From positions 434,001 to 498,000 of the forward strand of contig NZ_LYST01000043.1 in NCBI RefSeq assembly GCF_001693755.1: a DNA stretch of 64,000 nucleotides. The letters are read 5' to 3'. The notes under the pieces are model-generated. The model saw only the letters and a program-made list of their open reading frames with translations. It was not told the origin of the DNA and ran no database searches. Below, in pieces: positions 22,096 to 26,530 of the stretch. The translations under genes were made by a program, and so were the position numbers. This DNA is from Gilliamella sp. wkB171. Lineage in GTDB: Bacteria > Pseudomonadota > Gammaproteobacteria > Enterobacterales > Orbaceae. Positions within the stretch are counted from its first letter, which is position 1, and every line of letters starts with the position of its first letter.

Positions 22096-22635
22096 ATGCA
22101 ATCACAATTAATTATTGATGAACTCAATCATTCAATACAAACATTAACAGATCAAAACATCACAAATTTGATCGCAAAAATCAAACAGCACCAACGCATT
22201 TTTGTGTATGGCACTGGGCGCTCAGGTTTGATGCTAAAAGCCTTTGCCATGCGATTAATGCAACTTGGATTGTGCGCTTTTGTAGTTGGTGAAACCACCA
22301 CCCCAGCAGTACAAAAAGGCGATTTACTTATTGTTGCATCAGCCTCTGGCGAAACCAATACAGTTAATATGATGGCTGAATCAGCCATTAAACAAGGTAT
22401 TGATCTTGATATTATCTGCGCTTCGCCAAATTCAACTTTAGCCAAAATTCAAACGCCAGATATTATGTTACAATCCGGAACTAAATTTTCACAATCAAAA
22501 ATGAGTCAACAACCATTAGGTAGCCTTTTCGAGCAATTGTTATTGATTATTTTTGACACCGTGATTCTGACGATGAGTAATGCGCAAAAAGAGAGTAATA
22601 CCGACATGGCACATCGACATGCCAGTTTAGAGTGA
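22096..22635 (+). CDS. SIS-domain isomerase, 6-phospho-3-hexuloisomerase (HxlB)-like
   Basis: 179-residue single SIS domain. YGTGRSGLMLKAFAMRLMQL, VVGETTTPAVQKGDLLI and ASASGETNTV match the 6-phospho-3-hexuloisomerase subgroup, which converts 3-hexulose 6-phosphate to fructose 6-phosphate in the ribulose monophosphate route. No hexulose-phosphate synthase is nearby. Here it is the last gene of the PTS operon, 40 bases after EIIA with AGGAG upstream of the ATG, so a role in an unusual hexose-phosphate pathway together with the RpiB-like enzyme is inferred. Other phosphosugar isomerase activities remain possible. Confidence 0.78.
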   Translation: MQSQLIIDELNHSIQTLTDQNITNLIAKIKQHQRIFVYGTGRSGLMLKAFAMRLMQLGLCAFVVGETTTPAVQKGDLLIVASASGETNTVNMMAESAIKQGIDLDIICASPNSTLAKIQTPDIMLQSGTKFSQSKMSQQPLGSLFEQLLLIIFDTVILTMSNAQKESNTDMAHRHASLE

Positions 22636-22653
22636 CGCCCACAATAAGATTAA

Positions 22654-22694
22654 TAAAATCCACTCATCCTTTGTTATTTGATCAGTGGATTTTA
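22654..22694 (+). terminator. Terminator after the PTS operon
   Basis: TAAAATCCACT / AGTGGATTTTA, an 11-bp perfect inverted repeat with a 19-base loop, ending in TTTT. The A and T flanks are symmetrical. Confidence 0.7.
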
Positions 22695-22858
22695 CACCAA
22701 TACCCAATTAACAATGTCTTATCTTTTACTAACTGACACCATTTACAATAATTGATGATAAAATTTATTTGTTTAACAACAAAAATTCACATAATAACAA
22801 ACTATCCTGTTGTAATAATTGTTTTAATTTTGAGAAAAAATGCTAGAATGTTGCCACT

Positions 22859-23203
22859 ATGACTGTGATTAGCTATTGTAAACAACTCCACAAACGCTTT
22901 ATTATCAAAACTGCCTTATCGCACTTATTATTAGGTGTGATTGCTGCTGGGTTTGGTCTATATCAAGAAAATGCATTACCTGCTCAGCTATCGGTGTCTC
23001 AAGTCGGTATTATAGCTATTACCGCAATAGTGCAAGATCATCAAACGCCAATAAAAACGCATATACAATCACTGTTGTTGGTGCAAAAACAACATGATGA
23101 TAAACAAACCATTTCATTAAATAATTATGATGTCAGTCCCAATATTGTCATCCGATTAACCCCCTACAACGGCATTAGAGCTGGTCCTGAAGCTACTGTT
23201 TAA
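22859..23203 (+). CDS. secM: Secretion monitor SecM, short form with GIRAGP arrest motif
   Basis: Regulatory nascent peptide that senses secretion and controls SecA synthesis. The 114-residue protein has a basic N-terminus and a hydrophobic segment with HLLLGVIAAGFGL (residues 22-34), very like the E. coli SecM leader. It ends in GIRAGP at residues 105-110, four residues before the stop, exactly the core of the E. coli arrest motif. The gene lies directly upstream of secA, as in E. coli. It differs in being much shorter (E. coli about 170 residues), and the upstream arrest residues are changed: where E. coli has Trp-Ile, this protein has Arg-Leu (VIRLTPYN before GIRAGP). No clear ribosome-binding site precedes the ATG. 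Confidence 0.88.
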   Translation: MTVISYCKQLHKRFIIKTALSHLLLGVIAAGFGLYQENALPAQLSVSQVGIIAITAIVQDHQTPIKTHIQSLLLVQKQHDDKQTISLNNYDVSPNIVIRLTPYNGIRAGPEATV

Positions 23204-23232
23204 AAATCGATAACTTACTGAAATTAAGTTGC

Positions 23233-23281
23233 CTTATTTAGATATAAAACCTTATTAATCCTATTAAAAAAATAAGAGAAG
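23233..23281 (+). promoter_or_regulatory. secM-secA intergenic RNA stem near the secA ribosome-binding site
   Basis: CTTATTT at 23233-23239, and a second CTTATT at 23251-23256, can each pair with AATAAG at 23271-23276, which runs into the secA ribosome-binding sequence AAGAGAAG. In E. coli a stem in the secM-secA spacer hides the secA site until SecM arrest opens it. The pairing here is short and AT-rich, so its strength is uncertain. Confidence 0.45.
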
Positions 23282-23284
23282 ATC

Positions 23285-26008
23285 ATGCTATTAAAATTAT
23301 TAACCAAAGTATTCGGTAGCCGTAATGAACGTGTACTAAAAACAATGCGTAAACGCGTAGAAAGAATCAATGCTTTAGAACCACAAATGGAAGCATTAAC
23401 GGATGATGAGCTAAAAGCAAAAACAGCAGAATTTAAACAAAAAATTGCTGATGGCACCAAATTAGATGATATTTTAGAAGAAGCTTTTGCGGTCGTTCGT
23501 GAAGCGAGTAAACGCGTTTTTGGAATGCGTCATTTTGATGTGCAGCTAATTGGGGGTATGGTATTAAATGAACGCTGTATTGCTGAAATGCGTACAGGTG
23601 AAGGTAAAACCTTAACCGCAACCTTACCTGCCTATTTAAATGCGTTAACAGGCAAAGGGGTTCATGTCGTCACGGTTAATGATTACTTAGCCCAACGTGA
23701 TGCTGAAAACAATCGCCCACTATTTGAATTTCTAGGTTTAACTGTCGGTATTAATCTACCTAACATGCCACCGCAAATGAAACGCGATGCTTATAATGCC
23801 GATATCACTTATGGTACTAATAACGAATATGGCTTTGATTACCTGCGCGATAATATGGTGTTTACGAAAGAATCGCGAGTACAACGCCCACTACATTATG
23901 CCTTAGTCGACGAAGTAGACTCGATTTTAATTGATGAAGCAAGAACACCATTAATCATATCTGGACAAGCCGAAGACAGCTCTGATAGATATGTCAGTAT
24001 CGATAAAATTATTCCATACTTGGTTCGCCAAGAAAAAGAAGATTCTGATCAATTTCAAGGTGATGGTGACTTTTCTATTGACGAAAAAACACGTCAAGTC
24101 AACCTCACTGAACGCGGTTTAATTAAAGTTGAAGAGTTACTAATTAAACAAGGTATTATGAAAAGTGACGAGTCACTATATGCCCCAAGCAATATTGTGT
24201 TAATGCATCATGTCAACGCAGCTCTTCGAGCCCATCACCTATTCCATAAAGATGTGGATTATATTGTTCGCGATAACGAAATCATTATTGTCGATGAACA
24301 TACTGGTCGTACTATGGATGGACGCCGCTGGTCTGATGGGTTACACCAAGCAGTAGAAGCCAAAGAACATGTTAAAATTCAAAATGAAAACCAAACTTTG
24401 GCATCTATCACTTTCCAAAACTATTTCCGACTATATGAAAAATTAGCAGGGATGACAGGGACAGCGGATACCGAAGCATTCGAATTTAATCAAATCTATG
24501 GTCTTGATACCATTGTTATTCCAACAAATCGCCCAATGGTCCGTAAAGACCAATCTGATTTAGTCTATATGACCGAAAAAGAAAAAATCGACGCGATCGT
24601 GGCTGATGTACAAGAGTGTGTAAAACGTGGTCAGCCTGTGTTAGTTGGTACGGCTTCTATCGAGAAATCAGAACTTGTCTCTCAAGCATTTAAAAAAGCG
24701 GGTATCAAACATAATGTATTAAATGCTAAATTCCATGCACAAGAAGCCGAAATTATCGCTGAAGCAGGTAGTAAAGGTGCCGTGACAATTGCCACCAATA
24801 TGGCGGGGCGCGGTACCGATATTATGCTTGGCGGTAACTGGCAAAATGAAGTCGCTAAACTTGAAAATCCAACCCCTGAAGATATCGAAAAAGCCAAACA
24901 AGCATGGCAAACCAAGCACGAAGAGGTAATAGCACTTGGTGGCCTTTACATTTTAGGGACAGAGCGTCACGAATCTCGTCGTATTGATAACCAATTACGT
25001 GGTCGTGCTGGTCGTCAAGGTGACCCTGGTGCTTCACGCTTTTATCTATCACTTGAAGACCCATTAATGCGAATTTTCGCCTCAGAGCGTGTTGGTAACA
25101 TGATGCGTAAACTGGGTATGAAAGAAGGCGAAGCCATTGAACATCCTTGGGTTACTAAAGCTATTGCAAATGCGCAAAAGAAAGTTGAAAGCCGTAACTT
25201 TGATATACGTAAACAACTACTTGAATTTGATGATGTTGCCAACGATCAACGTAAAGCAATTTATCGCCAACGAAATGAACTACTCGATAATAGCGATATT
25301 AAAGATACCATTGATTCTATTCGTGATGATGTATTTAATGCGCTAATTGATCAATATATTCCACCTCAATCAATTGAAGAGATGTGGGATGTACCTGGAC
25401 TAGAATCAGCATTAAAAACCGATTTTGCTTTAGATTTACCGATTGCTAAATGGTTAGATGAAGAAGCAAATCTGCATGAAGAAACATTACGTGAACGCAT
25501 TTTACAAATCGCAAAAGAGACCTATCTTGAAAAAGAAAACAGTGCTGGCTCTGAAGCATTTAGACACTTTGAAAAAAGTGTAATGTTACAAACACTTGAC
25601 ACTTTATGGAAAGAACATTTAGCCGCAATGGATTATTTACGCCAAGGTATACATTTACGTGGTTATGCGCAAAAAGATCCTAAACAAGAGTATAAACGTG
25701 AATCATTTAATATGTTTGCAAGCATGTTAGAATCGTTAAAATATGATGTTATTGGTGTACTGAGTCGTGTTCAAATCCGATCACAAGAGGAAGTTGATGA
25801 AGCTGAACGACAACGCTTAGCTGAAATGGAAAAGCTCATGGAAAAACAGAAAACGAGCCATGAATCTGTTACTAGTATTGATGGAGATCAACCTGAAACC
25901 TCATCGACGCAACCAGTAGTCCGAGCGCAAGCGAAAGTTGGGCGTAATGATCCTTGTCCATGTGGCTCAGGAAAAAAATATAAACACTGTCATGGTGCTG
26001 TTCACTAA
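23285..26008 (+). CDS. secA: Preprotein translocase ATPase SecA
   Basis: Motor ATPase of the Sec export system. The 907 residues agree with E. coli SecA (901). The order is: NBD1 with the Walker A motif MRTGEGKTL (about residues 102-110) and [15 protein letters not shown]; the preprotein-binding domain; NBD2 with [14 protein letters not shown] and [11 protein letters not shown]; scaffold and wing domains; and a C-terminal zinc-binding [14 protein letters not shown] that contacts SecB and phospholipid. It is preceded by secM and followed by mutT, as in E. coli. Confidence 0.98.
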
Positions 26009-26125: not shown

Positions 26126-26530
26126 ATGAAAAAACATACTGAAATTGCTGTAGGTATTATACGTTCACAAGATTGTCAAATCTTTATCACTCAACGAGGT
26201 GAAGACTCGCATCTTGCTGGTTTTTGGGAGTTTCCGGGTGGAAAAGTCGAAGTTGCTGAAACACCTTTTCAAACCTTGCAACGCGAGATCGCTGAAGAAG
26301 TCGACATTCATATTCATCATGCGCAATTCTTAAAAACAGTTCAGCATAGTTACGATGATCGCGATATTACTATCCATGCTTATTTAGTTGAAGAGTGGGA
26401 TGGCGTACCTTTTGCCAAAGAAGGGCAACCGAGCCGTTGGATTGATCAAGAAGATCTCAATGCGGATGAATTTCCCGATGCTAATCGACCGATTATCGAA
26501 ATGCTAAAAAATTTAGATAAACAAATTTAG
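26126..26530 (+). CDS. mutT: 8-oxo-dGTP diphosphatase MutT
   Basis: Nudix hydrolase that removes oxidised dGTP from the nucleotide pool and so prevents A-to-C transversions. The Nudix box starts at GGKVEVAETP and continues to REIAEEV (about residues 37-59), with all acidic ligands present. Length 134 residues, near the 129 of E. coli. AGGA precedes the ATG. The position after secA is conserved with E. coli. Confidence 0.93.
   Translation: MKKHTEIAVGIIRSQDCQIFITQRGEDSHLAGFWEFPGGKVEVAETPFQTLQREIAEEVDIHIHHAQFLKTVQHSYDDRDITIHAYLVEEWDGVPFAKEGQPSRWIDQEDLNADEFPDANRPIIEMLKNLDKQI

Follow-up and report, generated by a model that had tools for sequence, protein, structure and literature searches.

In the window, the 64,000-nucleotide stretch of DNA that we analyzed from Gilliamella sp. 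wkB171, a bee-gut bacterium of the Orbaceae, an open reading frame on the plus strand runs from an ATG at 22859 to a TAA ending at 23203 and encodes 114 amino acids. The next gene on this strand is secA, which starts 81 nt after the stop codon of the ORF. The C-terminus of the 114-residue protein reads NIVIRLTPYNGIRAGPEATV, i.e., PNIVIRLTPYN-GIRAGP-EATV and then the stop, with GIRAGP as residues 105 to 110 (23171-23188). SecM stalls its own ribosome and in this way switches on the secretion motor SecA. Among force-sensitive arrest peptides it is the textbook example, and it also serves to measure folding forces. The features of the locus are as follows.

22814..22849, plus strand: conserved core-promoter block ending in an extended -10 element TGCTAGAAT (hexamer 22844-22849), from conservation in 32 Gilliamella
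22859..23203, plus strand: secM, short-class SecM of Gilliamella, 114 aa, from the ORF, weak NCBIfam matches, BLASTP to E. coli SecM, and intact Orbaceae homologs
22859..22990, plus strand: SecM signal region MTVISYCKQLHKRFIIKTALSHLLLGVIAAGFGLYQENALPAQL, conserved among Orbaceae SecMs and alignable to E. coli SecM (pN/pS 0.30); signal function presumed from sequence
23150..23170, plus strand: upstream arrest segment IRLTPYN, residues 98-104, equivalent to E. coli 154-160, from Orbaceae counts (pN/pS 0.135, pS 0.67)
23171..23188, plus strand: GIRAGP arrest core, residues 105-110, with IRAGP in 43/43 Orbaceae SecMs (pN/pS 0.039)
23192..23198, plus strand: candidate post-arrest arm GCUACUG, at +10 to +16 nt relative to the P-site codon, with complementarity to codons 10-12 of secA
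23274..23281, plus strand: secA Shine-Dalgarno-like AAGAGAAG, read from the sequence (duplex energy -2.9)
23285..26008, plus strand: secA, 907 aa, recognized by sequence, the presumed regulatory target
23314..23320, plus strand: CGGUAGC in secA codons 10-12, candidate pairing partner of the post-arrest arm

A MutT-like NUDIX gene (26126-26530) lies 3' of secA, which is the gene order of E. coli. The gene 5' of secM was recognized from its sequence as hexuloisomerase-like and is not lpxC. An inverted repeat 3' of this gene, AAAATCCACT...AGTGGATTTT (22656-22693), may be a terminator between it and secM; the loop of the repeat exceeds what the terminator scan accepts.

BLASTP against E. coli SecM gave an E value of 5e-6 over the N-terminal part of the protein, including the signal region. 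Two NCBIfam models also matched, both under their curated cut-offs: NF002799 at E 1.8e-6 and 28 bits (cut-off 100) over residues 9-88 and NF038363, SecM_small, at E 0.0032 and 18 bits (cut-off 45). The best-scoring group was Enterobacteriaceae for the former and Pasteurellaceae for the latter. A Pfam search of the protein returned no match, and the closest named match was an uncultured Gilliamella MAG with 96% identity across the protein. The literature library that we searched held no paper linking SecM with Gilliamella. Given the alignment of its signal region to E. coli SecM and its place directly before secA, the ORF is a real SecM, of the short class and a family-specific variant, and we hold its SecM function with high, though less than full, confidence. 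RAGP-like termini have evolved repeatedly upstream of sec genes (PMC10987492), so a convergent RAGP-type arrest peptide, RQH/ApdA-like and not related to SecM, could in principle look similar. We give that origin almost no credence, since the signal region is homologous to that of E. coli SecM and both the secM-secA-mutT order and the four residues after the Pro are as in E. coli.

A survey of more than 30,000 genomes distinguished long SecMs, in which the median distance from signal to arrest site is 131.5, from short ones in Pasteurellaceae, in which it is 71 (PMC10987492). About 75 residues, counted by eye, separate the end of the hydrophobic stretch from Gly109 here, which fits the short-class spacer. 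The original prediction had pointed to the length of 114 residues and to GIRAGP lying four residues before the stop. Both descriptions are accurate, but neither is distinctive, as a class of short SecMs has been published (PMC10987492) and E. coli SecM also ends four residues (QRLT) after its motif.

We searched 44 Orbaceae genomes, the window's own and 43 others, and every one gave a match. An intact homolog ending in IRAGP and located upstream of secA was found in 43 of the 44 (42 besides the window's own), with secA identified in translated downstream frames for L046-L048. The sole match in G033, a genome that is 59% complete, had an E value of 0.014 and was rejected as a SecM since it is weak and sits within an unrelated 1153-residue ORF (C12:22426-22575). 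With so weak a match and an incomplete genome, SecM is unaccounted for in G033 and its absence is not demonstrated. Several other Gilliamella gave a similarly weak match within an ORF of about 1153 residues, which is likewise not SecM. The distribution of IRAGP-ending homologs before secA implies that the ORF is no chance feature. The secM-secA gap, measured in 40 Orbaceae, was 72-88 nt in the 32 aligned Gilliamella and up to 223 nt elsewhere.

While reading the ORF with E. coli numbering set from Arg163, we found Arg-Leu at 155-156 and Pro at 150. The full E. coli set of F150, W155, and I156 is therefore not present in the window SecM, and the first description of this gene, with an exact GIRAGP, Trp-Ile changed to Arg-Leu, and the upstream Phe missing, was borne out. 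I162, R163, and P166 have been reported as invariant in SecM (PMC10951299), and all three are kept in the IRAGP of 43/43 Orbaceae sequences. The proposed alignment of SecM from other Orbaceae recovered a family-wide upstream motif. From the 43 sequences, aligned on Arg163, we arrived at a consensus of [IV]154-R155-L156-[ST]157-P158-x-N160-[GA]161-IRAGP, with R155 in 35, L156 in 37, P158 in 36, and N160 in 41. The exceptions are IQITSHNA (L043 and L044), LTLLPNNG (L045), ILLPNHG (L051), and GYSLANP and GYAFANA (L054 and L055). L052 (genus g5) was the only Orbaceae SecM read with Trp155, as WFSIAHG (WFSIAHGIRAGP).

The Trp is itself not general. W155 was present in 11/11 Enterobacteriaceae and 0/33 Pasteurellaceae SecMs, and of two other families, one has Leu and one Trp. 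This implies that Trp is typical of part of the order and not of SecM at large, and with none of the 33 Pasteurellaceae SecMs carrying W155, the full E. coli F150/W155/I156 motif does not define the family. Thus, the "usual Trp" said to be lost is indeed Arg in the window, but it is usual only in Enterobacteriaceae-like SecMs.

To describe selection, we used pairwise Nei-Gojobori-type counts of pN/pS over related genomes, and the values are therefore descriptive. In Gilliamella, GIRAGP was the most constrained part of SecM (0.039) and the upstream RL[ST]PxN segment the second (IRLTPYN, 0.135), followed by the signal region (0.30) and the linker (0.526). Synonymous sites vary freely in both motif segments (pS 0.67 in IRLTPYN), and selection thus acts on the peptide. 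In the four-residue tail, pN/pS was 1.04 and pS was reduced to 0.34, and selection there perhaps acts on nucleotides. The new element that these alignments point to is that Orbaceae keep an upstream motif of their own, [IV]-R-L-[ST]-P-x-N-GIRAGP, under protein-level purifying selection.

In E. coli SecM, I156 packs at A2058, S157 touches A2062, F150 stacks against U2609, and R163 occupies a pocket at A2503-U2506 (PMC10951299). W155A lowers stalling (PMC10951299), W155Y leaves about 20%, and I156L keeps about half (PMC6340945). By these data, L156 and S/T157 in Orbaceae are mild changes, and what really departs from E. coli is R155, P158, and the missing F150. As W155 is important in E. coli, a peptide with R155 might stall weakly. 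Taken further, this would make the gene a decaying SecM that, having lost its upstream contacts, arrests weakly or not at all and keeps GIRAGP only as a remnant, a reading that the missing W155 and F150 and the W155Y value (PMC6340945) favor. However, the upstream segment is the second most constrained part of the protein, R155 and N160 are kept in most of the family, and secM is intact in every Orbaceae genome where it was found. We regard decay as very unlikely.

Next to the peptide, we compared the tunnel, taking the list of 23S contacts from PMC10951299. The SecM-contact nucleotides A2058, A2062, A2503-U2506, U2585, and U2609, and also A751, are the same in Gilliamella as in E. coli; the 23S tunnel positions checked all match, 1781 excepted, and there is almost no difference in the tunnel loops of uL22 and uL4. 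We therefore rejected an adaptation of the tunnel as the explanation for the new motif; the change is in the peptide and not in the tunnel. The pattern fits the scheme of a RAG/P arrest module plus a regulator module (PMC10951299), with the former kept and the latter replaced. The original prediction of a different upstream contact set agrees with a segment that is unlike E. coli yet conserved in the family, with the reservation that Ile156 to Leu is conservative and that position 157 keeps a hydroxyl residue.

A further possibility is that arrest needs RAGP alone and that RLSPYN is kept for RNA structure or force-sensitive release, not for tunnel contacts. In E. coli, R163 is reported as the key residue and the upstream residues as a modulating "regulator module" (PMC6340945, PMC10951299), and these residues are also varied among Pasteurellaceae SecMs. 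The high synonymous divergence of the upstream segment argues against RNA constraint, and constraint at the peptide level suggests a role in the tunnel. We consider an arrest by RAGP alone unlikely, though clearly less so than decay. With the homology, the place before secA, the family-wide motif with protein-level selection, and the matching tunnel residues all observed or computed, the window ORF is very probably a functional SecM secretion monitor of Gilliamella with a replaced upstream contact set.

While inspecting the start of secM, we identified an extended -10 (TGCTAnnAT) that ends exactly 9 nt before the ATG in 32/32 Gilliamella. The alignment of these 32 sequences has 24 invariant columns upstream and at the start of secM, 21 in the promoter block and 3 in the ATG, and conservation drops on both sides of the block. 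TAACAT lies at the same distance from the ATG, or one nt off, in L051, L052, L054, and L055. The gene upstream of secM varies: it is hexuloisomerase-like in the window and L033, multicopper-oxidase-like in L036, and a divergent oligoribonuclease-like gene in Orbus, where the names rest on sequence recognition and not on a family search. Within Gilliamella, the block stays put despite the changing upstream gene. There is no Shine-Dalgarno before secM (mean anti-SD duplex energy, +0.4 versus -4.1 for 48 window genes), and none of the 48 window genes checked has such a -10 near its start. With the extended -10 at 9 nt from the ATG and the usual start distance, a 5' leader of 0-3 nt is predicted, i.e., the secM mRNA is predicted to be leaderless or nearly so.

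We also examined pairing between the end of secM and the start of secA. In 32 Gilliamella, 91% of cells in the pairing of the post-arrest arm GCUACUG with secA were paired, beating shuffled and slid controls. The best downstream target in most Gilliamella was secA codons 9-12, and codon 11 is an invariant GGT (32/32). In L022, L026, L027, and the genus of L052, the best target of the arm is the secA Shine-Dalgarno itself; in L052, the SecM with Trp155, the post-arrest codons pair with it across 8 bp. The E. coli post-arrest codons pair just upstream of the secA Shine-Dalgarno. Tree-aware covariation of the 7-bp arm/secA pairing was not significant, as the independent changes were too few (1-4 as expected and 0 or 1 against), the 32 species offering no more than 4 informative pairs, and since secA VFGSR is conserved as protein, part of the pairing could be chance. 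Folding yielded the helix in some species only, with a low probability in the window's species, which is not among them, and the folding energies in Gilliamella revealed no clear switch. The energy of opening the secA start with versus without a stalled ribosome did not change consistently, a comparison that fails on E. coli too and is thus uninformative. Taken together, we treat a secM post-arrest/secA RNA switch as a candidate, a lead and not a result. RNAalifold on the secM 3' end and intergenic region gave no default consensus fold of note, and an Rfam search of 22600-23500 gave sub-threshold chance matches only. A small AAGG/CCTT intergenic hairpin was set aside; 87% of cells were paired, yet its covariation was no greater than that of shuffles.

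Our model for the functional SecM is as follows. The family set [IV]-R-L-[ST]-P-x-N, replacing F150/W155/I156, would position the same Arg in the same tunnel, with stalling predicted, by analogy with E. coli, at Gly109 in the P site and Pro110 in the A site (PMC10987492). The footprint of the stalled ribosome would then extend about 16 nt downstream and take in all of GCUACUG. Masking these final secM codons, and with them the complement of the secA start, may free secA for translation. We infer both arrest and its release by pulling, as well as the RNA switch and a weak, leaderless-type secM initiation. It is possible, and we propose it tentatively while thinking it more doubtful than probable, that Orbaceae hold a rebuilt monitor, in which the whole contact set was exchanged at once and became fixed across the main genera, the mRNA is practically leaderless with rare initiation, and the switch in most species works via secA codons 9-12 and not via the Shine-Dalgarno.

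A natural, family-wide alternative to W155 in an E. coli-like tunnel would offer a ready-made test of the upstream interactions that determine how strong the arrest is and how it is released. Should the leaderless start prove right, secA control would be tied to a second unusual initiation mode.

Among known systems, a similar Arg-Ala-(Gly/Pro)-Pro arrest module has been proposed for the RAPP/RAGP arrest peptides ApdA, ApdP, ApcA, and the RQH family (PMC10951299, PMC10987492). None of these is homologous to Gilliamella SecM; ApdA and ApdP precede secDF2, and ApcA precedes yidC2. The short SecMs of Pasteurellaceae (NF038363) are closer, with a similar length (roughly 100-120 aa), a homologous signal region, and IRAGP near the C-terminus. 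Unlike the Gilliamella protein, they have Pro before IRAGP (31/33), 0-5 residues after the Pro, and no RL[ST]PxN, and the example L056 has a -10-like TATAAT about 30 nt before the ATG. One of them, L069 (genome G247, match at 1491), ends PIRAGP-stop with no residue after the A-site Pro, and another, L082, ends PIRGSP instead of PIRAGP, an RGSP variant known in Mannheimia succiniciproducens (PMC10987492).

Like E. coli SecM (170 aa, FxxxxWIxxxxGIRAGP), Gilliamella SecM lies upstream of secA and has a homologous signal region, an exact GIRAGP, four residues after the Pro, and a stretch of post-arrest codons that complements the secA start region. It differs in its 114 aa, in R155-L156 for W155-I156, in Pro158 and Asn160, and in Pro or another residue at 150, and its gene is preceded by one other than lpxC and has its own conserved promoter touching the start codon. 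The Orbaceae motif thus varies a familiar device modestly, in a way that can be tested.
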